From: Sneathiella chungangensis
Lineage (GTDB): Bacteria > Pseudomonadota > Alphaproteobacteria > Sneathiellales > Sneathiellaceae
DNA length: 64,000 nucleotides
NCBI RefSeq assembly: GCF_009882935.1
Contig: NZ_WTVA01000003.1
Span: forward strand, 284,715-348,714
Direction of reading: 5' to 3'
The position numbers and the translations under genes are program-made. Of this stretch, positions 7,691 to 62,206 are shown one piece after another. The notes under the pieces are model-generated. The model was not told the origin of the DNA. It was given only the letters and a program-made list of their open reading frames with translations, and ran no database searches. Position 1 is the stretch's first letter, and every line of letters starts with the position of its first letter.

Positions 7691-7703
7691 TTATCGCCCG
7701 AAG

Positions 7704-7744
7704 AGGCGGGTGGCCTTCGGGCCGTCCGCCTTTTCGCTTTTTTG
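7704..7744 (+). terminator. Strong hairpin with UUCG tetraloop between pstS and pstC
   Basis: AGGCGG-GT-GGCC closes on GGCC-GT-CCGCCT around a TTCG loop, giving a 12-bp stem with two G-T pairs, followed by TTTTCGCTTTTTT. It begins 13 bases after the pstS stop and should terminate most transcripts, letting a minority read into pstCAB-phoU-phoB. Confidence 0.88.
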
Positions 7745-7786
7745 TTTGTCCCTTTACCACGTGCTGCACCGGAAAAAGAAACCGAT

Positions 7787-9028
7787 ATGAGCTTTTACCC
7801 CCTTCTGATCGTGCTGCTGCTGATGTCCGCCGTCGGCTATTGGTTCGGATCGAAAAAGGCCCTCGGCGCAGTTCGCAAATCGACGAATTTCATTACGCCG
7901 CGCCCGCACCAGTTCGGGCTTTATGTGGTCATCTGGGCGCTGGTCCCGCCGATCCTTCTGGGCGCGATCTGGATCCTGATGCAAGTAACACCCCTGCAGA
8001 TGGAAGTCGGTCTCTCGCAACAGGTCAACCGGGTATTGTTTCCCGTGATCGTGCTCTTGGCCGCGGGCGGCGGGCTTTATTTCTCGCTTCAAAAAATCGG
8101 TCCCGATCTCAAGGTGCGCAAGACGATCGAGGGGCTGGTCTATATTGTGCTGATCCTCGCCTCGATCATTTCCATCCTGACGACCATCGGCATCGTCCTC
8201 TCGCTGCTCTTCGAGACGATCCAGTTCTTCAAGAAAGTGCCGATGTCGGAGTTTTTCTTCGGCCTCACCTGGAGCCCGCAGACCGCGCTTCGCGCCGACC
8301 AGGTCGGATCGAGTGGCGCCTTCGGCTCGATCCCGCTGTTTACCGGAACCCTGCTGATCACCTGTATCGCCATGTGCGTCGCCGTGCCGCTCGGGCTGCT
8401 GAGCGCCATCTATATGACCGAATATGCCTCGCAGCGCTTCCGGTCGGTGGTCAAGCCGATGCTGGAAATCCTCGCCGGTATTCCGACGGTGGTCTATGGC
8501 TTCTTCGCGGCGCTGACCGTCGGTGTCTTCTTCCGCGACATCGGCGATGCCATCGGCATCGATATCGTCTCGGAAAGCGCGCTCGCCGCCGGTGTCGTCA
8601 TGGGGATGATGATCATTCCCTTCGTCTCCTCGCTCAGCGATGATATCATCATGGCGGTGCCGCAGTCGCTTCGCGATGGCTCCTACGGGCTTGGCGCGAC
8701 GAAATCGGAAACCGTGCGCAATGTCATCCTGCCGGCGGCGCTGCCCGGCATCGTCGGCGCCGTGCTGCTGGCCGTTAGCCGGGCGATCGGGGAGACGATG
8801 ATCGTGGTGATGGCCGCCGGTTTCGCCGCCAACCTGACCGCCAATCCGCTGGAGGCCGTGACGACCGTGACCGTGCAGATCGTCGGCCTGCTCGTCGGCG
8901 ACCAGGAATTCGACAGCGCCAAGACGCTGGCCGCCTTCGCGCTCGCGCTGGTGCTCTTTATCGTCACCCTCTGCCTCAATGTGATCGCGCTGCTGGTGGT
9001 TCGCAAGTATCGGGAAAAATATGACTGA
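7787..9028 (+). CDS. pstC: PstC, phosphate ABC transporter permease
   Basis: A polytopic inner-membrane permease (413 residues) that pairs with PstA to form the phosphate channel. The C-terminal half carries the binding-protein-dependent transport domain, with the EAA-like loop near SLRDGSYGLGATKSETVRNVILPAALPG in pieces typical for PstC. The N-terminal third holds extra membrane segments (LLIVLLLMSAVGYWFG and others), as in alphaproteobacterial long PstC proteins. The frame opens at 7742, but that part overlaps the terminator region, so I use the ATG at 7787 (MSFYPLL). It overlaps pstA by eight bases, indicating translational coupling. Confidence 0.9.
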   Translation: MSFYPLLIVLLLMSAVGYWFGSKKALGAVRKSTNFITPRPHQFGLYVVIWALVPPILLGAIWILMQVTPLQMEVGLSQQVNRVLFPVIVLLAAGGGLYFSLQKIGPDLKVRKTIEGLVYIVLILASIISILTTIGIVLSLLFETIQFFKKVPMSEFFFGLTWSPQTALRADQVGSSGAFGSIPLFTGTLLITCIAMCVAVPLGLLSAIYMTEYASQRFRSVVKPMLEILAGIPTVVYGFFAALTVGVFFRDIGDAIGIDIVSESALAAGVVMGMMIIPFVSSLSDDIIMAVPQSLRDGSYGLGATKSETVRNVILPAALPGIVGAVLLAVSRAIGETMIVVMAAGFAANLTANPLEAVTTVTVQIVGLLVGDQEFDSAKTLAAFALALVLFIVTLCLNVIALLVVRKYREKYD

Positions 9029-10328
9029 ACAAACCCAAGACACCGCCGGGTCGAACTGGAATTCCGAAAAGTTCACCAAAGGGCTGGCAAAACGCAAGCG
9101 GGCTGAGGTGCGGTTCCGCCGCATTGGCCTGCTGGCGATCCTGACCGCGCTGACGCTGCTGGCGATCCTCCTGTTCAGCATTTTCAGCAAGGGTTATACC
9201 GCCTTCGTGCAGACTTACGTCACCCTCGACATCACCTTTTCCGAAGAGGTGATCGACAGGAACGGCACGCGCGATCCGGAAGAGCTCCGCCTTGCCAATT
9301 ATGCGAAGCTGGTGCAGAACGCGCTCCGGGCGAAGTTTCCCGAGGTGACGAGCCGGCGTGACCTGCGGGCCCTGTTCTCTCTGGTCAGCAATGATGCGGC
9401 CGATACCCTCCGCGACATGGTTGCGGACGACCCCGATCTGATCGGCAGAACCGTCCCGGTGTCGCTGCTGGCGGGGGACGATGTCGATATGGTCACTAAG
9501 GGCTATATTGATCGCGCGGCGGTGGAGGATGACCGGCGCGTCAAGGACCGCGAGCTTGCCTGGCTCGATATACTCGAGGCGGACGGCGATATCTCGCTGC
9601 GGTTCAACCGGGGCTTCTTTACCAATGGCGACAGCCGGGAGCCGGAGAAGGCGGGCATCGCCGGGGCCATGGTGGGGTCGCTCTATACGCTCGTGATCAC
9701 CATGCTGATCGCCTTTCCTATCGGGGTGATGACCGCGATCTATCTGGAGGAATTCGCGCCGCGCAACAGGTTCAACGACCTGATCGAAGTGAATATCAAC
9801 AATCTCGCAGCGGTGCCGTCGATCGTGTTCGGTCTTCTCGGCCTCGCGATTTTCCTCAACGTCGCGCATCTGCCGAGATCGGCGCCGCTGGTCGGCGGCC
9901 TGACACTCGCGCTGATGACCCTGCCGACGATCATCATCGCCGCCCGCGCCGCGATCCGCGCCGTGCCCGACAGCATCCGCCATGCGGCGCTCGGCCTCGG
10001 CGCCTCAAAACAGCAGGCCGCCTTCCATCATATCCTGCCGCTGTCGATGCCGGGGATCCTGACGGGAACGATCATCGGCCTGTCGCAGGCCCTTGGCGAA
10101 ACGGCGCCGCTTCTGATGATCGGCATGGTTGCCTTCATCGCCGATATCCCGGGAAGTATCAACGATCCGGCGACGGTCATGCCGGTGCAGATTTTTCTCT
10201 GGGCCGACAGCCCGGAGCGGGCTTTTGTCGAGAAAACCTCGGGCGCCATCATGGTGTTGCTCGGTTTTCTCATCCTGATGAACGCGCTGGCGATCTTCCT
10301 GCGCCGGAAATTCGAGCGCCGCTGGTAA
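9021..10328 (+). CDS. pstA: PstA, phosphate ABC transporter permease
   Basis: The second permease of the Pst system (435 residues). After one N-terminal membrane segment (IGLLAILTALTLLAILLF) there is a soluble insertion of roughly 150 residues, seen in many alphaproteobacterial PstA proteins (DUF3333-type N-terminal region). Then comes the five-segment permease domain, with the EAA-type loop around RHAALGLGASKQQAAFHHILP. It starts inside the end of pstC and is followed 12 bases later by pstB, so all three are one transcription unit. Confidence 0.9.
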   Translation: MTEQTQDTAGSNWNSEKFTKGLAKRKRAEVRFRRIGLLAILTALTLLAILLFSIFSKGYTAFVQTYVTLDITFSEEVIDRNGTRDPEELRLANYAKLVQNALRAKFPEVTSRRDLRALFSLVSNDAADTLRDMVADDPDLIGRTVPVSLLAGDDVDMVTKGYIDRAAVEDDRRVKDRELAWLDILEADGDISLRFNRGFFTNGDSREPEKAGIAGAMVGSLYTLVITMLIAFPIGVMTAIYLEEFAPRNRFNDLIEVNINNLAAVPSIVFGLLGLAIFLNVAHLPRSAPLVGGLTLALMTLPTIIIAARAAIRAVPDSIRHAALGLGASKQQAAFHHILPLSMPGILTGTIIGLSQALGETAPLLMIGMVAFIADIPGSINDPATVMPVQIFLWADSPERAFVEKTSGAIMVLLGFLILMNALAIFLRRKFERRW

Positions 10329-10340
10329 AGGTATAAGGAA

Positions 10341-11153
10341 ATGAATGTGCAAATACAGGCAGAAAAATCGGCGAACGCCGGCATGGACGTGGCGGAGGAA
10401 TTCGTCATCGAGACGCGCAATGTCGATGTCTTCTATGGCGACAACCATGCCATCAAGGGGGTCTCGCTGAACATCCCGAAACATCAGGTGACCGCCCTGA
10501 TCGGCCCGTCCGGCTGCGGCAAGTCGACCTATCTGCGGTGTCTCAACCGGATGAACGACACGATCGAGGGCTGCCGGGTGGAAGGGGAAATCCTGCTCGA
10601 CGGTCTTGATATCTACGCCTCGGGTGTTGACGAGGTCCTGCTGCGCGCCCGCGTCGGAATGGTGTTCCAGAAACCCAATCCCTTCCCGAAGTCGATCTAT
10701 GACAATGTCGCCTATGGTCCGCGCATCCATGGCTTGGCCGCCAACAAGGACGAGCTTGACGATATTGTCCTCACCAGCCTTGAACGGGCCGGCCTTCTGA
10801 AGGAGGTGCAGGACCGCCTGCATTCCATGGGCACGGGCCTTTCAGGCGGCCAGCAGCAGCGCCTCTGCATTGCCCGCGCGCTCGCCGTCCGTCCGGAGAT
10901 CATTTTGATGGACGAGCCTTGCTCGGCGCTTGATCCGATCGCCACGGCGAAGGTCGAGGAACTGATCGACGAGCTCAAGGAAAACTATACGATCATCATC
11001 GTCACCCATTCCATGCAGCAGGCGGCCCGCGTGTCGCAAAAGACGGCGTTCTTCCATCTGGGCGATGTCGTCGAGTCGGGGCCGACGGAAAAGGTCTTCA
11101 CCAGCCCCGAGGACGAACGGACGCAGGGCTATATCACCGGCCGGTTCGGTTGA
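10341..11153 (+). CDS. pstB: PstB, phosphate ABC transporter ATPase
   Basis: A 270-residue ABC ATPase that powers phosphate import. It shows Walker [10 protein letters not shown], the Q-loop in [11 protein letters not shown], the signature LSGGQQQRL, Walker [13 protein letters not shown] and the switch His in VTHS. The [17 protein letters not shown] stretch is characteristic of PstB among ABC ATPases. An AAGGAA site precedes the ATG at 10341. It lies between pstA and phoU, the canonical order. Confidence 0.95.
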
Positions 11154-11180
11154 TCAATACAGTGACAGGAGAGTCCCACC

Positions 11181-11897
11181 ATGAGTAGCGGCCATATAGT
11201 CAAATCCTTTGATGAGGAACTTGAGGGGGTGCGCAACACCATCGTCGAGATGGGCGGGCTTGCCGAGAGCCAGCTTGAGGCGGCGGTCCGCTCGCTGAGC
11301 GAGCGCAACACCGAGCTTGCCCTCAAGACGATCGAGGCCGACAAGGCGGTCGATGAGTTGGAGCATAAGGTCGACAATATGGCGATCCGGCTGCTCGCCC
11401 TTCGCAGCCCGGTGGCGGACGATCTGCGCCTCGTCATCTCGGCGCTGAAGATCGCCTCGCTTCTCGAACGCGTTGCCGATTATGCGACGAATATCTCGAA
11501 GCGGGTGATCGCCCTCAATCTCGCGCCGAGCATCGCGCCGATTTCCTCGATCCCGCGCATGGGCGAGATGGTCCGGCGAATGATCGATGATACGCTCACC
11601 GCCTATTCGACGGGCGATGCCGATCTCGCCTTAGACGTCTGGACGCGCGACCAGGAGGTCGACCAGCTATACAACAGCATGTTCCGCGAGCTGCTTACCT
11701 TCATGATGGAGGATCCGCGCAGCATCACGAGCTGCACCCATCTCATTTTCATGGCGAAGAATATCGAGCGCATCGGCGATCATATGACGAATATCGCCGA
11801 GATTATTATCTATCAGGTATCGGGCGAAATGCCGAAGGATCCGCGCCCGAAGGGCGACAAGACCAGCATGACCATGATTGAGCCCAAAGATTCGTGA
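11181..11897 (+). CDS. phoU: PhoU, regulator linking Pst transport to PhoR
   Basis: A 238-residue all-helical protein made of two PhoU repeats, each with an ExxxD-type metal motif (for example VADYATNISKRV and IGDHMTNIAEII). PhoU binds the Pst transporter and PhoR, and keeps the Pho response off when phosphate is plentiful. An ACAGGAGAG site precedes the ATG at 11181. It is followed after four bases by phoB, so sensor, transporter and regulators form one locus. Confidence 0.93.
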   Translation: MSSGHIVKSFDEELEGVRNTIVEMGGLAESQLEAAVRSLSERNTELALKTIEADKAVDELEHKVDNMAIRLLALRSPVADDLRLVISALKIASLLERVADYATNISKRVIALNLAPSIAPISSIPRMGEMVRRMIDDTLTAYSTGDADLALDVWTRDQEVDQLYNSMFRELLTFMMEDPRSITSCTHLIFMAKNIERIGDHMTNIAEIIIYQVSGEMPKDPRPKGDKTSMTMIEPKDS

Positions 11898-11901
11898 GTG
11901 T

Positions 11902-12594
11902 ATGAGTGAAGATATGAAAATTCTTATTGTTGAAGACGAGCCGGCGATGGTCGAGCTCCTGCGCTATAATCTGGAGAGCGAGGGCTTTGACGTTGCTTCC
12001 GCCCATGACGGCGACGAGGCGCTGCTCGCCATCGAGGAGGAGGCCCCGGACATGCTGCTGCTCGACTGGATGCTGCCGAAGGTGTCGGGGATCGAGATCT
12101 GCCGCCGCCTTCGCCGCGACCAGAAACACGGCAACCTGCCGGTCATCATGATCACCGCGCGCGGGGAGGAGGCGGACCGGGTGAGGGGGCTTGATGTCGG
12201 CGCCGACGACTATGTCGCGAAACCCTTCTCGCCGGCCGAGCTCATGGCCCGCATCCGCGCGGTTCTCCGCCGTCGCAACCCGGAGGCCGGCAGCGAAAAG
12301 CTGACCGTCGCCGATGTCATTATCGATCTCGTGGCCTATAAGGTCAGTCGCGGCGGACGTGACCTGCGCCTCGGGCCGACCGAATTCAAGCTCCTTCGCT
12401 ATTTCATGGAGAGAGCAGGGCGGGTGCTGACCCGCGAACAGCTTCTCGACGGGGTCTGGGGCCAGAATGTCTATGTCGAGGACCGCACGGTCGATGTGCA
12501 TATCCGCCGCCTGCGCAAGGCGCTGAATGAGGCTGGGGAGCCCGATCTTATCCGCACCGTGCGGGCCGTCGGCTATTGTTTCGAGAAGGCATGA
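11902..12594 (+). CDS. phoB: PhoB, phosphate regulon response regulator
   Basis: A 230-residue OmpR/PhoB-type regulator. The receiver domain has acidic residues in VEDEP, the phospho-accepting Asp near residue 55 (MLLLDWMLP), Thr in MITARGEE and Lys in VAKPFSP. The C-terminal winged helix starts near residue 130 (LRLGPTEFKLLRYFMERAGRVL). Start choice is uncertain: ATG at 11902 (MSEDMKILIVED) or the internal ATG at 11914 (MKILIVED). The frame also opens inside phoU at 11878. It should bind the Pho box before pstS. Confidence 0.93.
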   Translation: MSEDMKILIVEDEPAMVELLRYNLESEGFDVASAHDGDEALLAIEEEAPDMLLLDWMLPKVSGIEICRRLRRDQKHGNLPVIMITARGEEADRVRGLDVGADDYVAKPFSPAELMARIRAVLRRRNPEAGSEKLTVADVIIDLVAYKVSRGGRDLRLGPTEFKLLRYFMERAGRVLTREQLLDGVWGQNVYVEDRTVDVHIRRLRKALNEAGEPDLIRTVRAVGYCFEKA

Positions 12595-12596
12595 AA

Positions 12597-12624
12597 AATG
12601 CCGCCTGACGGATCAGGCGGCATT
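12597..12624 (-). terminator. 12-bp perfect hairpin between phoB and mlaC
   Basis: AATGCCGCCTGA and TCAGGCGGCATT form a perfect stem around a four-base loop, directly after the phoB stop. On the minus strand it is followed by TTTTTC, so it terminates mlaC. On the plus strand there is no T run, but the stem may still stabilise the 3' end of the pho transcript. Confidence 0.8.
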
Positions 12625-12645
12625 ATGTCGGAAAATCCCTGACCG

Positions 12646-13275
12646 TCAGTTCGACGCGGTCTTGATCTGTTCCTTCAGCTTGTTGATCAGCCCGTCGACG
12701 CCCATGCCGGGCTGGCTGATCACGGAAGCAAACTCCGAGCGGTGGGTCTGCGCCATGCTGATCCCTTCGATGATCACATCGACGATTTTCTCGCCGTTCC
12801 CGGTGTCGCGAACGCGCCAGTCAAGCTTGATGGGCGGGCCGTTCGGGCGGGTGATTACGGAATGAACCAGCGATTCCTTGTCGTTCAGCGACGTTGCATC
12901 CTTGATTTCCAGATTCTCGCCGGAATAGGAGCCGATCTTCTCACTGTAGCTGGCGACCATGAAATCACGGAAGACCTTGAGGAATTCCGTTTGCTGTTCG
13001 GATGACGCGTCGCGCCAGTACTGGCCGAGAACGAACCGGCCGATGCGCGGCATATCGAAGCTGTTGTCGAGAAACTTCTCGAAATGTTCCTGTTTCTGTT
13101 TTTCGCTCAGGGAAGTGTCCGCGAGCGTTTTAACCGCCTCGTCGCCGATATTCTTGACCAGCGCGAGTGCCGCCTGTTCTTTGGATTCCGCGGCGATTGC
13201 CGGGGCCTGGACGAATGCCGTCATTGCCATCGCGGCAATCAGCAGTCCATGGAAAAACCTTCTATTCATTACCAT
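12646..13275 (-). CDS. mlaC: MlaC-like periplasmic phospholipid carrier
   Basis: A 209-residue secreted protein of the MlaC/Ttg2D family. The signal peptide is MVMNRRFFHGLLIAAMAMTA and onward, ending near PAIAAE. The family features RFVLGQYWRDASSEQQTEF, FRDFMVASYSEKI and the LDWRVRD strand are visible. MlaC ferries phospholipids between the outer-membrane MlaA complex and the inner-membrane MlaFEDB transporter. mlaA lies just upstream on the same strand (71 bases between them). The inner-membrane components are not in this window. Confidence 0.88.
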   Translation of the reverse strand: MVMNRRFFHGLLIAAMAMTAFVQAPAIAAESKEQAALALVKNIGDEAVKTLADTSLSEKQKQEHFEKFLDNSFDMPRIGRFVLGQYWRDASSEQQTEFLKVFRDFMVASYSEKIGSYSGENLEIKDATSLNDKESLVHSVITRPNGPPIKLDWRVRDTGNGEKIVDVIIEGISMAQTHRSEFASVISQPGMGVDGLINKLKEQIKTASN

Positions 13276-13346
13276 TACAATACCCCCAACGGGAATGAGC
13301 CGATTAAATAAAAATAGCTATTTAAATGAAAAATGGATTAGCGACG

Positions 13347-14144
13347 CTAATTTTTCTTTACCGGTTTATCATCATCGTCAAAGGACATATCCGGCAATTG
13401 TGTCGAATTGCTGGCGCCATTGAGGATTAAATTGTTGCGGTTCTGCCGGTAAAGGCTGCGGACCGTCGCGTAAAAATCGATGGAATTCTTCTCGATCTCG
13501 TCAAGCGCGTCGATGGAGCGGGAACGCTCGTCGATCCCGCTTGCGCCGGCACGGATGAGGCCGACATGATCCATGTCGTTTTCTTTCGCCGCGTAATTGA
13601 TCGGGTCAAGATAGTAATCGGCAACGCCGCCGACAGCGGCGCGCGTCGTCCTTGGCCCGAAGACCGGCACGACCAGATAGGGTCCTTCCGGAACGCCCCA
13701 GGTGGCAAAGGTCTGGCCCATGTCTTCCTGCTGGTTATTCAGCTTGGCGACGTCGAATAGACCGCCGAGGCCGAGGAAAGTGTTGGTCACGAACGAGCCC
13801 ATATTATGCCCGGCGCGGTCAATCTCGCCCTGCAGCACATTGTTGATCAGGTAGATCGGCTGCTTCAGGTTGGTGAGGAAGTTGGTCACGCTGTCCCGGA
13901 CGGGAAGCGGCACGACCCCGCGATACATCTCGGCGACCGGCTTGAGGAACAGCGCATCCAGTGCATAGTTCACATCGAAGAAATACCGGTTCATCGGTTC
14001 CAGCGGATCGTAAACCTCGTTATACATCACGGCGACGGCCTTGCCCTCTTTTTGCTCAGGCGTCGCGCAGCCGCTCACTGCGATGAGGAGGGCGGTGGCC
14101 ATCAGGCCGACTTTTAAGGAAGATGATGTCGAACGCAAACCCAT
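13347..14144 (-). CDS. mlaA: MlaA (VacJ) outer-membrane lipoprotein
   Basis: A lipoprotein of about 265 residues that removes misplaced phospholipids from the outer leaflet. The lipobox is AVSGC near residue 26, and family motifs include YNEVYDPLEPMNRYFFDVNY, FLTNLKQPIYLINN, GSFVTNTFLGLGGLFDVA and GVPEGPYLVVPVFGPRTTR. The frame can be opened at a TTG at 14159, but the ATG at 14144, preceded by GGAAAAGAT, is the better start. The C-terminus ends in a charged tail rich in Asp and Lys. It is the first gene of the mlaA-mlaC operon. Confidence 0.92.
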   Translation of the reverse strand: MGLRSTSSSLKVGLMATALLIAVSGCATPEQKEGKAVAVMYNEVYDPLEPMNRYFFDVNYALDALFLKPVAEMYRGVVPLPVRDSVTNFLTNLKQPIYLINNVLQGEIDRAGHNMGSFVTNTFLGLGGLFDVAKLNNQQEDMGQTFATWGVPEGPYLVVPVFGPRTTRAAVGGVADYYLDPINYAAKENDMDHVGLIRAGASGIDERSRSIDALDEIEKNSIDFYATVRSLYRQNRNNLILNGASNSTQLPDMSFDDDDKPVKKN

Positions 14145-14460
14145 TTTTATCTTTTCCAACTCTGTACCCAGTTATCCGGAATTGAGGCCTAATCTATCCG
14201 GCAACCGTTACCAAAGTCTTTAACCTTAATGACCTAACCCTGTTTAACCGTTTTCAGCAATAAATCAATCGCCTAGACAGTCCATATTCAGTGTTCGTTC
14301 GTATCATAACCCCCATATCATGGCGAGTCGCCGTCTTTTAACGTTAACAGAATCCTTTCGTGGTGTGGCGAAAAAGTCGCTCTTGTACGGACATTTTCTC
14401 TGTACAAAGATATAAGGATATGTTTATATCATTTAACTTTATGGGATTATTGGGGTTGCT
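14145..14460. other. Divergent control region between mlaA and the ArsR-methyltransferase gene
   Basis: About 316 bases with an A+T-rich right half. I see two dyads: TTGTAC (14383-14388) with GTACAA (14402-14407), and the 22-bp near-palindrome at 14409-14430 listed separately. I looked for SAM-II or other SAM/SAH riboswitch cores and did not recognise one. Confidence 0.5.
14409..14430 (+). promoter_or_regulatory. Candidate operator of the ArsR-type regulator (GATATAA-N8-TTATATC)
   Basis: Arms GATATAA and TTATATC flank eight bases that themselves contain ATAT, so 18 of 22 positions are symmetric. It sits 31 bases before the GTG start of the regulator, where it could overlap the promoter. ArsR-family sites, including those reported for SahR regulators, are A+T-rich dyads with ATAT cores. 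Confidence 0.6.
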
Positions 14461-52849: not shown

Positions 52850-53752
52850 ATGACGGATACGCGCATTTCATCAGCCACCAGAGAAGTCATCATCGGATTT
52901 GACCGTCCGTTCGTGATCATCGGTGAGCGCATCAACCCGACAGGGCGCAAACTTCTCGCCGAGGAGATGAAAAACGGCGATTACAGCCGTGTCGAGGCGG
53001 ACGCACTGGCCCAGGTTGCGGCGGGCGCCCATATGCTCGATGTGAATGCCGGTATCCCGCTCGCCGATGAGCCGCGCATCCTCGCTGAAACCGTCAAGCT
53101 GGTGCAGAGCCTCACGGACGTGCCGCTCTCCATCGATAGTTCCATCGTCGCGGCGCTTGAGGCCGGCCTCGCCGTCTATCAGGGCAAGGCGCTGGTAAAC
53201 TCCGTAACCGGGGAGGAGGAGCGGCTGGAAACCGTGCTGCCACTGGTCAAGAAGCATGGCGCGGCGGTTGTCGCGATCTCCAATGACGAGAGCGGCATAT
53301 CCGAGGATCCGGATGTCCGCTTCGCCGTCGCCAAGAAGATCGTTGAACGGGCGCAGGATTACGGGATTTCCCCGGCCGATGTCGTTGTCGATCCGCTGGT
53401 CATGCCCGTTGGCGCGCTCAATGACGCCGGGCGGCAGGTCCTGACGCTCGTCCGCCGCCTGCGCGACGAGTTGAAGGTCAACACGACCTGCGGTGCCTCC
53501 AACTTCAGCTTCGGGCTGCCCAACCGCCATGGCATGAATGCGGCGTTTTTGTCCATGGCGATCGGCGCCGGCATGACCTCGGCGATTACCAATCCGCTGC
53601 ATGAGCCGGAAATGGCCGCCATCAAGGGCGCCAATGTGGTGATGGGGCGCGACCCGAACTGCGTGAAGTGGATCAAGACCTTCCGCGAACCCGCTGCCGA
53701 GGGCAGCGAGGAGGCCCGCCGGGCGGGCCGGCGACGGAGACGCAATGCCTGA
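52850..53752 (+). CDS. Methyl-THF:corrinoid protein methyltransferase (AcsE/MtrH-like)
   Basis: A 300-residue pterin-binding TIM barrel. Landmarks are FVIIGERINPTGRKLLAEEM, MLDVNAGIPLADEPR, PLSIDSSIVAALEAGL and TTCGASNFSFGLPNRHGMN, as in AcsE and the pterin domain of MetH. It would move the methyl from the corrinoid protein to THF (or the reverse). The last 14 residues are Arg-rich (EEARRAGRRRRRNA). It overlaps the activator gene downstream by eight bases. Confidence 0.9.
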   Translation: MTDTRISSATREVIIGFDRPFVIIGERINPTGRKLLAEEMKNGDYSRVEADALAQVAAGAHMLDVNAGIPLADEPRILAETVKLVQSLTDVPLSIDSSIVAALEAGLAVYQGKALVNSVTGEEERLETVLPLVKKHGAAVVAISNDESGISEDPDVRFAVAKKIVERAQDYGISPADVVVDPLVMPVGALNDAGRQVLTLVRRLRDELKVNTTCGASNFSFGLPNRHGMNAAFLSMAIGAGMTSAITNPLHEPEMAAIKGANVVMGRDPNCVKWIKTFREPAAEGSEEARRAGRRRRRNA

Positions 53753-55790
53753 CCGCCTGATTACCAAGGAAAAGACCCATCTGATCGCTTTCATGCCGTC
53801 GGGCAAACGGGGCCGCTTTCCGCATGGTACCCCGGTTCTGGAGGCTGCCCGCGCCCTCGGTGTCGATATCGACAGTGTCTGCGGCGGACGCGGCATTTGC
53901 GGCCGTTGCCAGGTCGATATGACCGTCGGCCGCTTTTCCAAGCACGGGGTTACCAGCCGCGCTGGCTCACTCTCCGCCTTCAACGATGTCGAGGAAAAAT
54001 ACCGGGAGCGCCGCAACCTCAAGGAGGGACGGCGGCTTAGCTGCCAAGCGCTGCTCAATGGTGACGCGGTCATCGATGTTCCCGCCACCAGCCAGGTCCA
54101 TAAGCAGGTTGTCGTCAAGCAGGCGGATGATCGCAAGATCGAGATGGACCCGGCGATCCGGCTGCATTTCGTCCAGGTGCTGGAGCCGGACATGCATAAC
54201 CCGACCGGCGATTTCGAGAGGCTTTGCCTCGCCCTCAAGCAGCAATGGGGGCTCGATGGCCTCGAATGCGACCTGCGCACCCTGCGGGCACTGCAAAAGG
54301 TGCTGCGGGCGGGCAACTGGAGCGTGACCGTCGCCGTCCACCGGGAGCGGCGCATCACGAAAGTCTGGCCGGGCTTCGCCAATCAGGCCTACGGCATCGC
54401 CGTCGATGTCGGCTCTACCACCATCGCCATGCATCTGTGCGATCTCTCCACCGGGGCGGTCATCGCCTCCGCTGGTATGATGAACCCGCAGATCCGCTAT
54501 GGCGAGGACCTGATGAGCCGGGTCTCCTATGTGATGATGAACCCGGGCGGGGAGAAACTGCTGACCGAGGCGGTGCGCTCTGGCATCAACGATCTGATCG
54601 CCGAAGTGAGTGAGGCCGCCAAGGTCGATCCCGACGATATCCTGAACGCGGTCTTCGTCGGCAATCCGATCATGCATCACCTGCTGCTCGGCATCGATCC
54701 GACGGAACTCGGCGGCGCGCCTTTCGCGCTTGCCACCAATTCGGGGATGATCGTCTGGGCGAGTGAGGTCGGGATGATTTCCAACCCCGATTGCCGGGCC
54801 TATTTCCTGCCCTGCATCGCGGGCCATGTCGGCGCGGATACGGCGGCGGTGATCCTGTCCGAGGCACCGCATCTGCAGGAACAGATGACCCTGATCATCG
54901 ATGTCGGCACCAATGCCGAGATTGTGCTCGGCAACAACGAACGGTTGCTCGCGGCCTCCTCGCCGACGGGACCGGCCTTCGAGGGGGCGCAGATTTCCTG
55001 TGGCCAGCGGGCGGCCGCGGGCGCGATCGAGCGGGTGCGCATTGATCCCGAAACGCTGGAACCGCGCTTCAAGGTCATCGGCTCCGATCTCTGGTCCGAT
55101 GAGGAAGGGTTTGAGGCGGAGACGAAAAAGATCGGCGTTACCGGTATTTGCGGCTCCGGTATTATCGAGGTGATCGCCGAAATGTATCTTGCGGGCATTC
55201 TCAGTTCCGATGGCGTGATCGATGGCGCGATGGCGGCGAAAAGTCCACGAATTGTCGCCGATGGCCGCACCTTCTCCTATGTGATCCGTGACGGCGAGAA
55301 CGAGATCAAGATCTACCAGACCGACGTGCGGGCGATTCAGCTCGCCAAGGCGGCGCTCTATGCGGGCGCGAAGCTGTTGATGGATAAGCTCGATCTGGAA
55401 AAGGTGGACCGTATCCAGCTGACCGGCGCCTTCGGCAGCCATATCGACACCAAATACGCCATGGTGCTCGGCATGATCCCCGATTGCGATCTTGAGGAAG
55501 TGAAGGCCGTCGGCAACGCGGCCGGGGTCGGCGCCCGCATCGCGCTCCTCAACAATTCGGCTAGGAACGAGATCGAGGAGTTGGTGAAGTCGGTCGAGAA
55601 AATCGAGACGGCGGTCGAGCCGAAATTCCAGCAATATTTCGTCGAGGCGATGGCCATCCCCCATAAAACCGCGCCCTATCCGGAACTCTCCAAGGCGGTC
55701 AAGCTGCCGGCGCCGAAAATGCTCTCCGATACCTCTGGTGAAGGGGGGCGTCGCCGTCGCCGCCGCGGCATGGAGACAGTGGCGGATTAG
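53745..55790 (+). CDS. RACo-type reductive activator of corrinoid protein
   Basis: A 681-residue protein with an N-terminal plant-type [2Fe-2S] domain, ligands Cys46, Cys52, Cys55 and Cys100 (SVCGGRGICGRCQ and RRLSCQ). A linker follows, and then an ASKHA ATPase domain (about 210-640) with AYGIAVDVGSTTIAMHL and LIIDVGTNAEIVLGNN. RACo proteins use ATP and low-potential electrons to reduce inactive Co(II) corrinoid to Co(I). The C-terminus carries GEGGRRRRRRGMETVAD. Its stop overlaps the convergent regulator gene by four bases. An activator of this kind is needed because Co(I) oxidises often, particularly in an aerobe. Confidence 0.9.
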   Translation: MPDRLITKEKTHLIAFMPSGKRGRFPHGTPVLEAARALGVDIDSVCGGRGICGRCQVDMTVGRFSKHGVTSRAGSLSAFNDVEEKYRERRNLKEGRRLSCQALLNGDAVIDVPATSQVHKQVVVKQADDRKIEMDPAIRLHFVQVLEPDMHNPTGDFERLCLALKQQWGLDGLECDLRTLRALQKVLRAGNWSVTVAVHRERRITKVWPGFANQAYGIAVDVGSTTIAMHLCDLSTGAVIASAGMMNPQIRYGEDLMSRVSYVMMNPGGEKLLTEAVRSGINDLIAEVSEAAKVDPDDILNAVFVGNPIMHHLLLGIDPTELGGAPFALATNSGMIVWASEVGMISNPDCRAYFLPCIAGHVGADTAAVILSEAPHLQEQMTLIIDVGTNAEIVLGNNERLLAASSPTGPAFEGAQISCGQRAAAGAIERVRIDPETLEPRFKVIGSDLWSDEEGFEAETKKIGVTGICGSGIIEVIAEMYLAGILSSDGVIDGAMAAKSPRIVADGRTFSYVIRDGENEIKIYQTDVRAIQLAKAALYAGAKLLMDKLDLEKVDRIQLTGAFGSHIDTKYAMVLGMIPDCDLEEVKAVGNAAGVGARIALLNNSARNEIEELVKSVEKIETAVEPKFQQYFVEAMAIPHKTAPYPELSKAVKLPAPKMLSDTSGEGGRRRRRRGMETVAD

Positions 55791-56776
55791 TGGCGGACGC
55801 GCCGCTCGTCGCTCGGCGTGCGGCCAAAATGCTCCCGGTGACATTTCGAGAAATGCGAGGCCGAGACGAAGCCGCAGGCAAGCGCCACCTCGATGATCGG
55901 CAGGCTCGTCTGGGTCAGGAGATAGCGCGCCCGGTCCAGCCGGAGCCCGAGATAATAGCGGGTCGGTGAATAATCGAGATATTTCTGGAACAGCCTTTCA
56001 AGCTGCCGGGTGGACAGCCCGACTTTGGTCGCGAGATCGCTGCAGCTCAAGGGCTCCTCGAGATTTTCCTCCATGCAGGCGATCGCGGCGAGCAGTTTCG
56101 GATGCGAGATGCCGAGACGCGCCCGCAGCTCCATCCGCTGGCGTTCCGTTCCCTCGCGGATGCGATGATAGATGAGCTGGTCGGCGACGGCGAGCGCGAG
56201 TTCCTGGCTGGTCTCCTTGGCGATCAGGCTCAGCATCATGTCGAGCGATGCCGTCCCGCCGGCGCAGGTATAGCGGTTGCGGTCGATCTCGAAAAGTTCC
56301 GAGGTGATGTCGAGATCGGGGAAATCCTCGATAAAGCCGGAGAGGTTCTCCCAATGGATGGTGCAGCGGTAGCCCTTCAGCAGCCCGGCCTTCGCCAGCA
56401 CATGCGGGCCCGTGCAGATGGCGCCCAGACTGGACCCGTGGGAGGACAGGCGGCGCAGGGTGGAGATGATCTGCGGTTCCGTATGTTTGTGGATATTGAT
56501 ACCGCCGCAGGTGAAGACTGTGGGAAGCGCGGGCATGTCCGAAATGCTTCCCTGCACCGAAAATTCAATTCCGGCGGAGCTGACGGCAGGCTTGCCATCG
56601 ACAGAAAAACATTCCCAGCTATAGATCGTTTCCTTGGCCAGCCGGTTGGCGATCCTGAGCGGTTCGACAGCCGAAATGAATGCAAGCGATGAAAATTCGG
56701 GAAGCAGGCAGAACCCGATCCTGTGCCTGATGCCCCCGGAATTCGATTTACCGTTCAAATTTGCGACTTCCAGCAA
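55787..56776 (-). CDS. GlxA-family regulator (DJ-1/PfpI and AraC-type HTH)
   Basis: A 329-residue regulator. Residues 15-190 or so are a class I amidotransferase-like DJ-1/PfpI domain (GFCLLPEFSSLAFISAVEPLR, GSSLGAICTGPHVLAKAGLL). Residues 220-320 are two AraC helix-turn-helix motifs (CSDLATKVGLSTRQLERLFQ and VALACGFVSASHFSKCHREH). This build is shared by GbdR, CdhR, SouR and ArgR of Pseudomonas, which control glycine betaine, carnitine, sarcosine and arginine catabolism. It abuts the corrinoid operon. I propose it controls that operon and the soxBDA genes through the 21-bp tandem sites; this is inference. Confidence 0.87.
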   Translation of the reverse strand: MLEVANLNGKSNSGGIRHRIGFCLLPEFSSLAFISAVEPLRIANRLAKETIYSWECFSVDGKPAVSSAGIEFSVQGSISDMPALPTVFTCGGINIHKHTEPQIISTLRRLSSHGSSLGAICTGPHVLAKAGLLKGYRCTIHWENLSGFIEDFPDLDITSELFEIDRNRYTCAGGTASLDMMLSLIAKETSQELALAVADQLIYHRIREGTERQRMELRARLGISHPKLLAAIACMEENLEEPLSCSDLATKVGLSTRQLERLFQKYLDYSPTRYYLGLRLDRARYLLTQTSLPIIEVALACGFVSASHFSKCHREHFGRTPSDERRVRH

Positions 56777-56899
56777 AAATCACCCTGTTTTCTAAACGCT
56801 ACTTCAGATGCCGAAAAAGACAAACATTTTTTGTACATCTGTCGGCAAAAAAGCCCGCCTGACAGCTGTCCCTTGCCACTAGCTGCCGCAACGGGAAGG

Positions 56900-58408
56900 C
56901 TACCTTCTCAGTGAGAGGAATTGAACGACACCGACAATTGCCAGAATGGCCATCCAATTGACCGGTGCGATGCGGAAGAATCCCATTTCAACGTAGAGGC
57001 TGACGCCGAGAAGAACGGCGCCTAACAGCAGGACCTCCAACAGGAGAATGAGGGCGATCTTCACCCAGCGTAACCAAATTCTTCTTCCGGAATGATTTTT
57101 GTAGAATGCCAGTAAAAAAAGAAATACATGCTTTATATGGACGAATGGATTATTCGTGGTTTCGTATTCGTACTTCACCTTCTTGTATTTCTTGTCCAGG
57201 AAAATTTGCACATAGGGCGTGAGATAATGGGCGAGGAGGAAGTACAGGAGGAGGATCACGACAAGCGTCGCCACCTCCAGGACGTCCGCCGTTATGGGCA
57301 GATAGTCGTTCGCCCGGCTCCCGGTCAGGGACAGGTAATCAGACCCCCATTCAATCAGATTCTCCAAGGCCATGGCGTGAATAAAGACGCCGGGGATATC
57401 ATTCGTCGTGGTTGGCGGCTTGACCGTGTCCTGAATACCTTCAAGGTTAAAACCATAGAAAACCACGCGGCCCTTCAGGGCCTCGTCGATCCGATTGTCG
57501 GGATCTTTAATGAAATAATGCGCGGGCAACCAGGGTTGCGGCGGACAGCTGGATTCCGGCTCCAGATCCAGAATGCTGTCGACAATATAATCGAGCGGGC
57601 CATCATCCAGATGAGCTCGCGTGCATTCAACGGCTTCAAACGGCTCTCCCTTATCCAGTTGGAAGACTTTTGAATTATCGGGCACGCGCGAAGACCAGAA
57701 AACCCACATTTCCCTGGCGGACTCTTCGAGATTTTTCCTGGTGTCGCAGCTGGCCGGCGCTTCGGCCGTTTCGTCACGTTTGCGGTTGTTGCAAAAGGCC
57801 TCAAACGCCTCGATCGCAATGGAGGGGGCGGCGTTCTCCTCGTCTTTCGGGTAAAGCGCATAACGGAAGGCAGAGTGACCGCCACTCTCCGACCAGCCGG
57901 CGGCCTGCGTAACATGGTCTTCCAGATCGGAAATGATACCTGTTTTCCCATAGGCGGAAAAAGATCCACGGGCCACAATGATCGGAATATTCAAGTCATT
58001 CTTGGCGTAGGAAAAGGTCGCCACCAAATCATCCAGGGATTTATCCTGACGTCTGTCCACCAATAGGAAATCAAGGACAACCGCCGCAGGCTCGGCCTTC
58101 AAAATCCGGCGGATGACGTCACTGTGAAACTCGAAGGGGGGCGGCCAGGTAAGATTGTCTTCGTTGAGGCTCTTCTGGTTAATGATCACCACGAACGTGG
58201 ATTTTTTCGCGACCTCGCTATCGGGATAAAATCTGGAACCAAGTAACCGGGTAAAATAACCATAGGACAATTCATCGGTCGGTTTCTCGATGGCCTCGGG
58301 CGTGATCAGGACGAGGATCACGGACATGACGATGGCGAACAGTAATTTTAGAAATTGCGCAAGTTTCGGGCCCGGCATAACCTTGAATGCCCGTTTGGGC
58401 CGACTCAT
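56900..58408 (-). CDS. CHASE2-domain membrane protein without an output domain
   Basis: A 502-residue protein: one N-terminal membrane segment (FLKLLFAIVMSVILVLI), a long extracytoplasmic CHASE2-like sensor domain (about 35-360; FVVIINQKSLNEDNLTWPPPF, AAVVLDFLLVDRR, VVFYGFNLEG), then three or four membrane segments (about 375-400, 430-455, 465-500). Most CHASE2 proteins end in a cyclase, kinase or phosphatase; this one ends in the membrane. It overlaps the upstream peptidase gene by four bases on the minus strand. It probably senses an envelope signal and acts with its two operon partners. Function unknown. Confidence 0.72.
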   Translation of the reverse strand: MSRPKRAFKVMPGPKLAQFLKLLFAIVMSVILVLITPEAIEKPTDELSYGYFTRLLGSRFYPDSEVAKKSTFVVIINQKSLNEDNLTWPPPFEFHSDVIRRILKAEPAAVVLDFLLVDRRQDKSLDDLVATFSYAKNDLNIPIIVARGSFSAYGKTGIISDLEDHVTQAAGWSESGGHSAFRYALYPKDEENAAPSIAIEAFEAFCNNRKRDETAEAPASCDTRKNLEESAREMWVFWSSRVPDNSKVFQLDKGEPFEAVECTRAHLDDGPLDYIVDSILDLEPESSCPPQPWLPAHYFIKDPDNRIDEALKGRVVFYGFNLEGIQDTVKPPTTTNDIPGVFIHAMALENLIEWGSDYLSLTGSRANDYLPITADVLEVATLVVILLLYFLLAHYLTPYVQIFLDKKYKKVKYEYETTNNPFVHIKHVFLFLLAFYKNHSGRRIWLRWVKIALILLLEVLLLGAVLLGVSLYVEMGFFRIAPVNWMAILAIVGVVQFLSLRR

Positions 58409-59850
58409 TGACAGAGATCTCGACTTTGCGGATGCTTGGCGACACAGGCGAGACGGAAGCCGGTGACTTCCTGTTTTTTACCGAGAACCTGCCCAAGCTC
58501 AATGGCCTCCCTGAAGGTCGCGAGCGGCCAGTCATAATATTCCCCGACTTCCTTCGTGCGATCGAAGGCCTCCTCATTCTGGCGCGTTTGCTTCAACCAT
58601 TGAATGCGGTTCATTTCCATCGGGCCCGGAAGGAATCCGTCGGTATTCTCGGTCAGCTCGAGATTTTTCAGCGCCAGCTCATACGCGCCCTTGTATTCCC
58701 GCACCAGGGACATGGTCTGGCGGGTATAGGGATGGTTCTGCGTGCTGCCGGAAATCGTCCAGCGGGCGGTGCTCTCCAGTTCGGCGAATTGCGCCGCGGA
58801 TAGTTTCGGCTCGCTCACCAGCGTTCGCCGGATTTCAAATGCCTTTTTGTACTTGTCCAGAATCTCCTGGTTGGCGGCGACGACACTTGCAAATTCAGCC
58901 TTGGTAAGATCCCGAAAAGCGGCTTCGGAATATTCCCGCTCGGTATATTCAAAGACGTCCTGCATGCGTTCCTGGGCATCCGGATGCTCTTTCGCGACTG
59001 TCGTCTGGAGATCCTTAAACGCGGTTTGTATCGATTCTACGAGATTGAATTTGTCGTTGTTCTTTGAGGAATGGTTTTCCGCGAGGATTTCCTTTTCGAG
59101 CGCATTGCGTTCGACCTCGAAACTGGCTTCGAACTGCTTTTCATACTCGTCGATGATTGTCAGGGCTTTGAGGGACTCGTTCGGATTGTAGCCCGCCGCG
59201 ACCATCAGATCGACGCCCAGCCGGTCGGCTTCCGCTTCATTTTGCCGGCTCCAGAATGGCAACAAGACGTCCCGCGCCATCAGGTCCGTCCCATATAGCC
59301 GGATTCCCTTGCCGGAATGGGGGTTCTTTCCGGCCTGACCGACCGCGATGTCGGCGGCCGTCACCAGATAGGGATGCATCGTCGTAAACAGGTCCGAGGT
59401 AAAATGCTGCAGCAACAGATGGGAATATTCATGGGCAATAATGAAGGCAATCTGGTCTTCGTTTTCCAGATAGTCGAAGAGACTGTGATTGAGGAAAATC
59501 GTGCCGCTTTTCACGGTGATGGCCCCCGGGTTCATATTTGCCCCGATTTGAATTTCCGGCTGCAATGGCACTTTCGGGCCGTTTTCGACAATCTTGGTCA
59601 GTATTGTCTGGGCGTAGAGGCGCAGGCTGTCGTCCGGAATTGTCCCAAGCGAATTCAGATAGATATTGCGTGTATCCTGCGTCGTCGTCAGATCGCCGGT
59701 TTCATATGATTTGGCGGTAAAATCATATTCTTCGACGAATTTTCCCTCCTTGCTGGTCTGGTCAAACGCGCCGACATAGGGAAGATCATCGATTGATACG
59801 CAGCCCACCATGAAACTGCTGAGAAGTATTACGGAGGTGAATTTTTTCAT
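58405..59850 (-). CDS. M48-family metallopeptidase lipoprotein
   Basis: A 481-residue lipoprotein. The signal is MKKFTSVILLSSFMVGC, and the zinc motif is HEYSH in FIIAHEYSHLLLQHF, with a third ligand Glu in RQNEAEADRLGVDLM. M48 peptidases of the periplasm (BepA, LoiP type) degrade or help fold outer-membrane proteins. The C-terminal 200 residues are helical and might be TPR-like (ALKNLELTENTDGFLP), as in BepA. It overlaps the CHASE2 gene by four bases, and follows the small SH3-like gene by nine. Confidence 0.82.
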   Translation of the reverse strand: MKKFTSVILLSSFMVGCVSIDDLPYVGAFDQTSKEGKFVEEYDFTAKSYETGDLTTTQDTRNIYLNSLGTIPDDSLRLYAQTILTKIVENGPKVPLQPEIQIGANMNPGAITVKSGTIFLNHSLFDYLENEDQIAFIIAHEYSHLLLQHFTSDLFTTMHPYLVTAADIAVGQAGKNPHSGKGIRLYGTDLMARDVLLPFWSRQNEAEADRLGVDLMVAAGYNPNESLKALTIIDEYEKQFEASFEVERNALEKEILAENHSSKNNDKFNLVESIQTAFKDLQTTVAKEHPDAQERMQDVFEYTEREYSEAAFRDLTKAEFASVVAANQEILDKYKKAFEIRRTLVSEPKLSAAQFAELESTARWTISGSTQNHPYTRQTMSLVREYKGAYELALKNLELTENTDGFLPGPMEMNRIQWLKQTRQNEEAFDRTKEVGEYYDWPLATFREAIELGQVLGKKQEVTGFRLACVAKHPQSRDLCQ

Positions 59851-59859
59851 TGGGCCAAC

Positions 59860-60249
59860 TCAATTCTTTTTGCAGGTGGATCGATCACCCAGACCTTTAC
59901 CGCTCTGGCCCGTTTTGGCGACCGCCGTTGACTCGCAGGCTATTTCAACTTTCCTGTCAATCTTCGGCAACGTCACCCTGGTGCTTTTAACCCATACGGG
60001 CTTTTCATAATTCTGGAGGCGGATTTTGTGCATGCCATTGGAAGAGGTGTCGATATACAGGACGGTTGGCGGAAATTCGGACGGCATGATCGTGTCGACA
60101 ATTTCCGCGTCTCTCGATGCCTCGGAATAGAGTTTAAGGTTGAGGCCTGGTAAACTCACTACCGCCGGAGTCATATCTTCGGCCATCGCTTTCGCCGCCG
60201 CGAAGGGCAGCAACATAACCATGGCGATTATAAACCATCTTTTAAGCAT
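59860..60249 (-). CDS. Small secreted protein, possibly SH3-like
   Basis: A 129-residue protein with a signal peptide (MLKRWFIIAMVMLLPFAAAKAMAE in part). The sequence LPGLNLKLYSEASRDAEIVD, then IRLQNYEKPVWVKSTRVTL, resembles a bacterial SH3 (SH3b) domain. The start at 60249 follows GGAGAG; the frame opens 13 codons earlier. It is the first gene of the three-gene minus-strand operon with the M48 lipoprotein and the CHASE2 protein. It may bind the cell wall or a peptide. Function unknown. Confidence 0.6.
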   Translation of the reverse strand: MLKRWFIIAMVMLLPFAAAKAMAEDMTPAVVSLPGLNLKLYSEASRDAEIVDTIMPSEFPPTVLYIDTSSNGMHKIRLQNYEKPVWVKSTRVTLPKIDRKVEIACESTAVAKTGQSGKGLGDRSTCKKN

Positions 60250-60368
60250 CTCTCCAAATTCCCCCCAGAACGAGAGCGTCCCTTTCATCCCTACAGGAAT
60301 ATGGTCATGTTTTCAATGGTAAATAAGATAGAAGTTATATAGGGCTAGGCGGTTCGCCGACCTCTCTT

Positions 60369-62063
60369 CTAGAAGAGGCCGACAATTTCGCCCGCCTCGT
60401 TTACGTCGATTGAATTTGCGGCGGGAATGCGGGGCAGGCCCGGCATCGTCATGATATTGCCGCAGACCGCGACGACGAATTCCGCCCCGCCGGAGATGCG
60501 CACCTCGCGGATCGGCACCACATGATTGCTGGGCGCGCCCTTGAGGTTCGGATCCGTCGAGAAGCTGTATTGCGTCTTGGCGATGCAGACCGGATAGTGA
60601 CCGAAGCCGCCGTCCTGCAGCTCCTTGAACTGGTCGCGCACCTTCTTGTCGGCGATAATGCCCTGCGCGCCATAGAGCGTTTGCGCGACCGTGCGCACCT
60701 TGTCCCAGAGCGGCAGCGCGTCGTTATAGAGCGGGGCGTAATTGCTGCCGTTCTGGTCAATTTTCTTAACCACCGCCTTGGCGAGATCCTTTGCGCCCGC
60801 GCCGCCATTGCCCCAGTGATCGGATTCGATCGCATCGACGCCAAGCTCGGCGCAGATCTGCCGGACCTGGTCGACCTCTTCCTTGGTATCGGCCGAGAAT
60901 TTATTGATGGCGACAATGACGAGCAGGCCGAATTTCTTCAAATTCTCCACATGGCGGGAGAGATTTTCGGCGCCGTCGATGACCGCCTTGACATTCTCCT
61001 TGCCCAGATCCTCCTTGGCGACGCCGCCATGCATCTTGAGCGCCCGGATCGTCGCGACGACGACGGCGATTTCCGGCTTCAGCCCGGCCTTGCGGCATTT
61101 GATATCGAGGAATTTCTCGGCCCCGAGATCGGCGCCGAAGCCGGCCTCCGTCACCACATAATCGGCGAGCTTGAGCGCCGTCTTGGTTGCCAGCACGCTG
61201 TTGCAGCCATGGGCGATATTGGCGAACGGCCCGCCATGGATAAAGGCGGGGTTGTTTTCGAGCGTCTGCACGAGGTTCGGCTGGAACGCATCCTTCAGGA
61301 GCACCGTCATCGCCCCATGGGCGTCGAGATCCTTCGCGAACACCGGCTTCTTTTCGCGGGTATAGCCGACGATGATATTGCCAAGGCGGCGCTTCAAATC
61401 GTCGATATCGGTCGCGAGGCAGAAGATCGCCATCACCTCGGAGGCGACGGTGATATCGAAATGATCCTCGCGCGGGAAACCGTCGGCGATGCCGCCAAGG
61501 CTGTTGACGATATTGCGCAGCGCCCGGTCATTCATGTCGACGACGCGCCGCCAGATGATCCGCCGCTCATCCAGGCCGAGCTGATTGCCCCAGTAGATAT
61601 GATTGTCGACCAACGCCGCCAGCAGGTTGTTGGCGACACCGATCGCATGGAAATCGCCGGTGAAATGCAGGTTGATATCGGTCATCGGCACGACTTGCGC
61701 ATAGCCGCCGCCCGCGGCGCCGCCCTTCATGCCGAAGCAGGGGCCGAGGGACGGTTCGCGCAGGCAGATGATCGCCTTCTTGCCGATGCGGTTGAGCCCG
61801 TCGCCGAGCCCGACGGTCGTCGTGGTCTTGCCTTCACCTGCCGGGGTCGGGGTCATGGCGGTCACCAGGATCAGCTTGCCGTCCGGCTTTTTCTCGAGCG
61901 TTTTGATATAGTCGAGCGAGAGCTTCGCCTTGTAATGGCCATATGGTTCCAGCTTGTCGGCGTCGATCCCGAGACTGTCCTTCGCCACCTCCGCGATCCG
62001 CTTCATCTTGGCGGCCTGCGCGATTTCGATATCACTTTTGGGATTCTTATGTTGGTCCGTCAT
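60369..62063 (-). CDS. fhs: Formate-tetrahydrofolate ligase
   Basis: A protein of about 564 residues that joins formate to THF using ATP, giving 10-formyl-THF. The ATP loop is [19 protein letters not shown]; others are [21 protein letters not shown] and [17 protein letters not shown] start at 62063 ([11 protein letters not shown]), preceded by GAGGGAGGG; the frame opens 15 codons earlier. In this setting it could run in reverse to release formate and ATP from one-carbon units of betaine breakdown, or salvage formate from HutG. It is divergent from soxB. Confidence 0.95.
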
Positions 62064-62206
62064 CGCTTGTCGCCCTCCCTCAAAAGCCGCTAACATCTGA
62101 TATTCCAACCGTTTCAGTCACAGTGGCGGCAGGCCCGACCGGCGGCTATTCATAAAACGACATTTATTCTTCAACATGCGGAGCGGGCGCGGCGGAGAAA
62201 AGCGAA

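Follow-up and report, generated by a model that had tools for sequence, protein, structure and literature searches.

A stretch of 64,000 nucleotides from Sneathiella chungangensis (contig NZ_WTVA01000003.1, positions 284,715 to 348,714; hereafter, the window) contains three adjacent minus-strand genes encoding a small secreted protein with a predicted bacterial SH3 (SH3b) fold, a BepA-like M48 zinc protease and a standalone CHASE2 membrane protein. Examination of gene neighborhoods in other genomes revealed that these genes, termed here the trio, almost certainly comprise a single functional unit that moves horizontally.

The trio had been singled out in an earlier note made from the sequence alone, where it was described as three near-touching or overlapping genes for a CHASE2 protein with no output domain, an M48 lipoprotein containing a HEYSH motif and a small SH3-like protein, with no obvious connection to the one-carbon region around them. 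The layout is as described there. The gene encoding the SH3-like protein (129 amino acids; 59860..60249, minus strand) is followed by those encoding the M48 protease, a probable lipoprotein (481 amino acids; 58405..59850, minus strand), and the CHASE2 protein (502 amino acids; 56900..58408, minus strand), with open reading frames (ORFs) separated by a 9-bp gap and then overlapping by 4 bp (ATGA). The SH3-like gene was read from an ATG at 60249 to a stop at 59860, with a longer in-frame ORF beginning at 60288. Such spacing fits an operon. In a sequence scan, promoter-like sites at the trio were found at chance level (2, as compared to 2.7 expected). As no minus-strand terminator-like site was called by a terminator scan in the interval between the SH3-like gene and the upstream gene for formate-tetrahydrofolate ligase (FTHFS), read-through from the latter is possible.

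The earlier note had proposed the joint presence of the three genes in other genomes as a test, and their linkage indeed holds across several proteobacterial classes. When an initial set of 95 relatives was considered by single-sequence searches, CHASE2 was matched in four genomes (including that of S. chungangensis) and M48 in 57, mostly by generic M48 proteins, while the SH3 protein was matched by a blast-type search in its own genome only (1/95). The conclusion that the trio is not conserved, as these searches alone would suggest, was overturned by gene neighborhoods and profiles. In each of four genomes, namely, G028, G059, G014 and G057 (loci L037-L040), genes encoding CHASE2, a secreted protein of 120-145 amino acids and M48 were found together. 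In a wide survey, named bacterial and archaeal genomes were scanned with a five-sequence CHASE2 alignment and the best 80 of 182 relatives were used, such that the 80 loci lean towards the CHASE2 subfamily of the window. These include loci from Thalassospira, Pseudomonas, Stutzerimonas, Pantoea, Vibrio, Alteromonas, Endozoicomonas, Acetobacter, Komagataeibacter, Achromobacter, Comamonas, Polaromonas and Desulfovibrio, as well as from metagenome-assembled genomes (MAGs) labelled Myxococcota and Anaerolineae. By ORF, 73 of the 80 loci contain a gene related to the M48 gene of the window next to, and co-oriented with, that encoding CHASE2; the count rises to 74 when L109, where the M48 gene is cut by the contig end, is included. 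The other six correspond to two loci at contig ends (L056 and L067), three with a gene for a caspase-like protein (L062, L084 and L121) and one with neither protease (L108).

In 77 of the 80 loci, a small secreted gene occupies the expected position, the exceptions being L048, L056 and L095. The finder used sought secreted ORFs of 95-165 amino acids with two C-terminal cysteines and showed a background rate of 64 in 2270 segments of 600 bp. Because it demands this cysteine pair, the pair in those 77 proteins was selected and is not evidence; the pair is also found in the SH3 proteins of the window, L037-L040, L155 and L157, all identified by other means. Likewise, since the survey pattern fixes a HAM-x-x-x-NL stretch, conservation of that stretch is no evidence. 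Among the 73 loci, the M48 gene lies after the CHASE2 gene in 63 and before it in 10, with the order SH3-M48-CHASE2 being common to the window and Thalassospira. In the 63 loci, the distance from the CHASE2 stop to the SH3 start ranges from -67 to 135 bp, with 58 falling between -70 and 60. The three genes remain together in two different orders, as well as in a single divergent arrangement. Mantel correlations of 0.82-0.86, calculated without control for the species tree, were obtained over 40 loci.

Linkage was also considered using control loci, hold-outs and reverse searches. A CHASE2 class search yielded matches in 102 of 386 genomes, from which 18 loci were examined as controls. An M48 gene was found alongside all eight standalone CHASE2 loci (profile score of at least 76 bits), as opposed to none of the 10 loci of the cyclase type (45 bits or less). 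Another, cyclase-sized CHASE2 protein without an M48 neighbor is encoded in the S. chungangensis genome itself (G000:C13:137441-137635, locus L166). In a plasmid collection held out from the survey, both SH3 and M48 were present in the three records matched, from Photobacterium, Novosphingobium and Caballeronia, with the annotation of the Caballeronia plasmid reading 'CHASE2 domain-containing protein - hypothetical protein - M48 family metalloprotease'. A Vibrionaceae hold-out (81 genomes of the family to which the genome of L062 belongs) yielded five matches, corresponding to the query's own, three trios and one weak match, the last with no SH3 or M48 within the flank examined; hence, besides the query, all three standalone CHASE2 matches lie in trios.

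When 299 Pseudomonadota genomes were searched with the M48 profile, the top four matches (G666, G691, the source genome G000 and G607; at least 149 bits) were all to trios, whereas CHASE2 was found within the flank examined in none of 26 weaker M48 loci (at most 124 bits). The SH3 profile matched three of these genomes at 1e-5 (G000, G666 and G691), again all trios, with the SH3 protein of G607 being detected only at locus scale (8e-8). From these reverse searches, it follows that the trio is rare and patchy and that its parts nearly always occur together. The possibility that the three are chance neighbors, or share a promoter but not a function, could draw on the single-sequence SH3 search that had matched one genome alone. 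Yet all of the linkage counts, as well as the persistence of the three genes in two orders and a divergent arrangement, contradict this explanation, which is refuted by the 80-locus linkage, the controls, the plasmid and Vibrionaceae hold-outs and the reverse searches, and is scarcely credible. Locus L211 (G681; 935-1462), in which CHASE2 is absent, contains a sequence that weakly matches the SH3 family (17.6 bits) directly ahead of a generic M48 gene, possibly an SH3-M48 pair.

In S. chungangensis, the trio is a horizontal insertion into the region between the genes encoding FTHFS (60369-62063) and a GbdR-like AraC regulator (55787-56776), with a gene for a RACo-like corrinoid activator (53745-55790) also among the neighbors, as assigned using Pfam and NCBIfam. 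The FTHFS gene is present in 18 of the 24 genomes of the genus. The GbdR gene directly follows it in 16 of 17 other congener loci, with none being found in the remaining one (L180) within the 1.5 kb examined. Similarity to congener DNA, as detected by blastn, ends at about 60371 and picks up again at about 56854. The foreign segment (56854..60371, minus strand) so delimited contains the three trio genes and no further recognizable gene. Moreover, the GC content of the trio genes is 50.8-53.2%, as compared to 60.2-62.1% in their neighbors. Because congeners keep the same FTHFS-GbdR region without the trio, a link between the trio and one-carbon metabolism was rejected, in agreement with the earlier impression. 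The FTHFS, GbdR-like and RACo-like genes are syntenic genus-wide, such that a methyl-transfer/one-carbon region (53745-62066) is interrupted by the trio. The trio occurs in two of the 24 genomes of the genus. The second (L039 in G014; 7697-11595) has different surroundings, with its CHASE2 gene oriented divergently to SH3-M48, and was probably acquired independently.

The CHASE2 domain of the window protein (residues 29-388; 57245..58324, minus strand) matches Pfam family PF05226 with 70.3 bits (cut-off, 26.3; 2.4e-19). Hydropathy predicts transmembrane helices at residues 17-35, 376-394, 451-469 and 477-495, with a periplasmic domain between the first two, while helices in the AlphaFold2 (AF2) model (predicted local distance difference test score (pLDDT) 83.2; predicted template modelling score 0.85) agree with this layout of one N-terminal and three C-terminal transmembrane segments. 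Once near-identical sequences were dropped, 64 of 90 CHASE2 proteins were retained and 62 were aligned, with L063 and L117 being left out. In the window protein and in all 62 homologues, CHASE2 is the sole Pfam domain (threshold 0.001), bearing out the claim that no output domain is present. No cyclase, kinase or other output domain was found in any of the 62, and at most 77 residues follow the last predicted transmembrane segment.

Like CHASE2 receptors such as adenylate cyclases and histidine kinases, the trio proteins contain PF05226, one N-terminal and several C-terminal transmembrane segments, P89, D113, G319 and D327. They differ in lacking an output domain, in having a protease partner and in residues of their own, with Y183, W238, C262 and C288 being found in 62, 62, 60 and 58 of the 62 trio proteins, as opposed to 0, 0, 1 and 0 of 10 cyclase-type proteins. 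The two trio-specific cysteines, Cys262 (57623..57625, minus strand) and Cys288 (57545..57547, minus strand), probably form a disulfide bond. When the CHASE2 model was compared to the Protein Data Bank (PDB), no Foldseek match at an E-value of 0.001 or better and no sequence match were obtained, with the best VIA match (Z 4.7; root-mean-square deviation (rmsd) 4.9; 112 aligned residues) not being significant. The absence of a PDB match does not show the fold to be new.

The window M48 protease matches PF01435 with 71.2 bits (cut-off, 20.3; 1.3e-19), and the HEYSH motif noted in it earlier is present as the HExxH active site at residues 140-144 (59419..59433, minus strand). A lipobox (VGC-VS), as read from the sequence, ends at Cys17 (59800..59802, minus strand). 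After near-identical sequences were dropped, 48 of 81 M48 proteins were retained, of which 47 were aligned (L095 was left out). H140, E141, H144, E205, D209 and R295 are invariant, and H289, C469 and C480 are conserved in at least 90% of the members. The trio M48 proteins thus present the HExxH motif, the third-ligand glutamate and an HPx4R active-site plug (H289-R295; 58966..58986, minus strand), the counterpart of H246-R252 in Escherichia coli BepA, a periplasmic M48 protease that works both as a chaperone and as a protease at the BAM complex. In BepA, the H246/P247/R252 plug occludes the active site, with the authors' data supporting deregulation of the protease by the H246N change (PMC7950410). 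The family profile matches BepA structures through the protease and TPR regions (E about 1e-15). By contrast, the trio protease falls below the cut-off of the BepA equivalog model NF052400 of NCBIfam (47.7 bits, as compared to 570), is often a lipoprotein, contains the C-terminal C469/C480 pair and, in its close relatives, always comes with CHASE2 and SH3 where examined. The S. chungangensis genome contains two further M48 genes.

As for the small protein, the core of its AF2 model is predicted with pLDDT above 90 and the tail with low confidence. Most Foldseek and VIA matches were to bacterial SH3 domains, with 9a7d_A (Z 8.1; rmsd 2.5; 70 aligned residues), 6biq_B (Z 8.1; 2.2; 68) and 4krt_B (Z 8.0; 2.2; 66) being tied in VIA. 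The protein is thus modelled as an SH3b-type beta barrel. Accordingly, the earlier SH3-like assignment gains support from the predicted structure and none from Pfam, since none of the 63 SH3 members (63 of 84, once near-identical sequences were dropped) matched a Pfam SH3 family at 0.01, with one marginal match being to an unrelated family. The C-terminal tail runs from Cys105, invariant in the 63 members, through a glycine-rich stretch to Cys126, conserved in at least 90% (59872..59937, minus strand), and is of the Gly-x-Gly type in 71 of the 84 proteins. In fold, the protein resembles SH3b cell-wall binding domains (4krt_B and 6biq_B), of which that of the phiSM101 endolysin is an example, yet differs in being free-standing and periplasmic, in its cysteine-closed tail and in having no Pfam family.

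At three loci, from Vibrio (L062 and L084) and Marisediminitalea (L121), CHASE2 and SH3 are retained next to a gene for a caspase-like protease (L062:4830-6914, L084:4858-6870 and L121:8499-10502; Peptidase_C14, PF00656, 2e-14 to 5e-15). The His-Cys dyad of these proteins is intact (SGHG and DSCH in all three), and that from L062 begins, by eye, with a signal-peptide-like stretch. Trio-type M48 proteins were not found in the genomes containing L062, L084, L121 and L108, only generic ones of at most 71 bits. The presence of a caspase in place of M48 at three loci suggests that CHASE2 and SH3 form a constant module and that the protease is an exchangeable effector. CHASE2 is also paired with a caspase-fold protease, a metacaspase, in the cyanobacterium Trichodesmium erythraeum, although there the two are fused, with the caspase being placed in the cytoplasm by the authors, and the system is not of the M48 type (PMC3501461). 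In L062 (8716-12870) and L121 (1373-6214), a second, larger protein combining a caspase domain with WD40-like repeats is encoded.

Given that the CHASE2 protein has no output domain, the sole enzymatic output of the trio would be periplasmic proteolysis and no message would cross the inner membrane. As such, a switch confined to the periplasm, comprising sensor, adaptor and protease, with the protease as exchangeable effector, is tentatively favored. The constant sensing and adaptor module would consist of the SH3b protein together with the periplasmic portion of CHASE2, itself anchored in the inner membrane, while the BepA-like M48 protease, in many cases a lipoprotein attached to the outer membrane, would act as the effector. 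The SH3b domain may dock on peptidoglycan or on an envelope protein, with its disulfide-closed tail contacting CHASE2 or the protease. A change in the envelope, such as a stalled outer membrane barrel or lost contact between outer membrane and wall, would free the histidine plug of the M48 active site, and the protease would then cleave or clear envelope proteins locally. Of the elements of this proposal, the conserved gene linkage, order and orientation, the catalytic residues, the predicted SH3 fold, the missing output domain and the horizontal insertion have been shown here, while complex formation, the direction of control, a ligand, a substrate and any part played in envelope stress are inferred.

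Precedents by analogy for CHASE2 reading envelope partners are found in Sinorhizobium meliloti, where CHASE2 cyclases act through the outer membrane barrel NsrA (PMC13001267), and in Burkholderia, where the BiofilmReg operon codes for both a CHASE2 kinase and a secreted LysM-FecR protein that probably binds the wall; this operon, however, includes PAS/HisKA output and a response regulator, with no protease being named in the portion of that account considered here (PMC5192318). The wider reading, namely, that a novel form of signal transduction beginning and ending in the periplasm relies on an old, mobile CHASE2/SH3b receptor module and an exchangeable protease effector (M48 in the majority of lineages, replaced by a secreted caspase in certain marine gammaproteobacteria), is conceivable but rather doubtful. 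Of the envelope system coupling a membrane protein and a protease that the earlier note had proposed, the unit is well supported by conserved linkage, and the overall reading in part.

Several observations weigh against the proposed switch. An SH3b fold is no proof of wall binding, and a cytoplasmic loop of about 40 residues in CHASE2 could still contact a cytoplasmic partner. CHASE2 and SH3 occur in L108 with no protease nearby, while the caspase swap is limited to three loci from two families. Of the 47 M48 members, no more than a few are matched by TPR models from Pfam. A lipobox was found in 44 of 81 M48 sequences by a strict pattern that misses some true lipoboxes, and several proteins without one plainly bear ordinary signal peptides; a lipobox as a universal feature of trio M48 proteins was thus rejected.

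Alternatively, the three products, predicted to reside one in each envelope layer, could link the inner membrane to the wall and the outer membrane (through CHASE2, SH3b and the M48 lipoprotein, respectively) as a structural or assembly system rather than a sensor, with the BepA-like protein serving chiefly as the chaperone or maturation protease of a single, dedicated outer membrane client. The two roles of BepA (PMC7950410) and the lack of an output domain in all 62 CHASE2 proteins agree with such a system. However, no conserved gene for such a client was found next to the trio, and replacement of M48 by a caspase better fits an effector than a chaperone, rendering this explanation unlikely. 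The opposite direction of control, whereby M48 processes CHASE2 or the SH3 tail and the membrane protein or released tail is the signal, would accommodate the conserved, glycine-rich, cysteine-closed tail, which is of low predicted order and resembles a bait or substrate, as well as the signal-receiving role of CHASE2 domains elsewhere (PMC13001267). Still, the trio CHASE2 offers no recipient for such a signal, and CHASE2 with SH3 persists without M48 in four of the 80 loci; this circuit is very improbable.

A role in defense or inter-bacterial protection, with the protease striking a phage or rival protein, or destroying a receptor, in the periplasm upon detection of attack by CHASE2 and SH3, is in keeping with a self-contained, horizontally inserted cassette with an exchangeable protease and with its patchy distribution (2/24 genomes of the genus; 4/299 Pseudomonadota genomes). 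Yet searches against PADLOC gave no convincing match, with none for CHASE2 and SH3 and no more than low scores for M48 (peptidase_U41, 15.8 bits; Lit, 13.3 bits), and only three plasmid records contain the trio, none typed as mobilizable. Moreover, only a handful of 121 neighbors match PADLOC at 1e-15, mostly candidate models, and there is therefore no sign of defense islands, rejected here as a general setting of the trio. A defensive role is decidedly unlikely.

While the components belong to known families, no description appears to exist of their combination, of the SH3 family or of the CHASE2 subfamily lacking output. In the open-access literature (subscription papers and preprints being outside this scope), no paper was found on the trio, on CHASE2 together with M48, or on a CHASE2 domain, an SH3 domain and a metalloprotease, and CHASE2 and metalloprotease were mentioned together in a single paper, in an unrelated sense. 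Three entities are defined by the trio, namely, an SH3 family not yet catalogued, a subfamily of CHASE2 proteins that works with no cytoplasmic output and a protease resembling BepA with partners of its own. The M48-for-caspase swap suggests a modular receptor. CHASE2 is a widespread bacterial receptor domain with largely unknown ligands (PMC5192318). As its only constant partners here are a secreted adaptor and a protease, the trio offers a direct handle on what CHASE2 reads. If the wider reading is true, such signaling would represent a periplasmic analogue of a ligand-gated protease switch. As Pseudomonas and Stutzerimonas are among the genetically tractable genera that contain the trio, deletion tests would be easy.

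Finally, no fourth conserved partner gene was found in the surveyed loci, where recurrent neighbors track genus synteny and are shared only among related genera. In Thalassospira and in one Pseudomonas (L046, L047, L050, L055 and L069; at about 11000-14200 in Thalassospira), genes for a TonB-dependent receptor, an ECF sigma factor and FecR are found within a few kb of the trio, an arrangement that is not general. Two tandem M48 genes are found within the unit in L075 (3939-7106), as are two tandem CHASE2 genes in L096 (6890-10909), from a MAG labelled, perhaps wrongly, as Anaerolineae.

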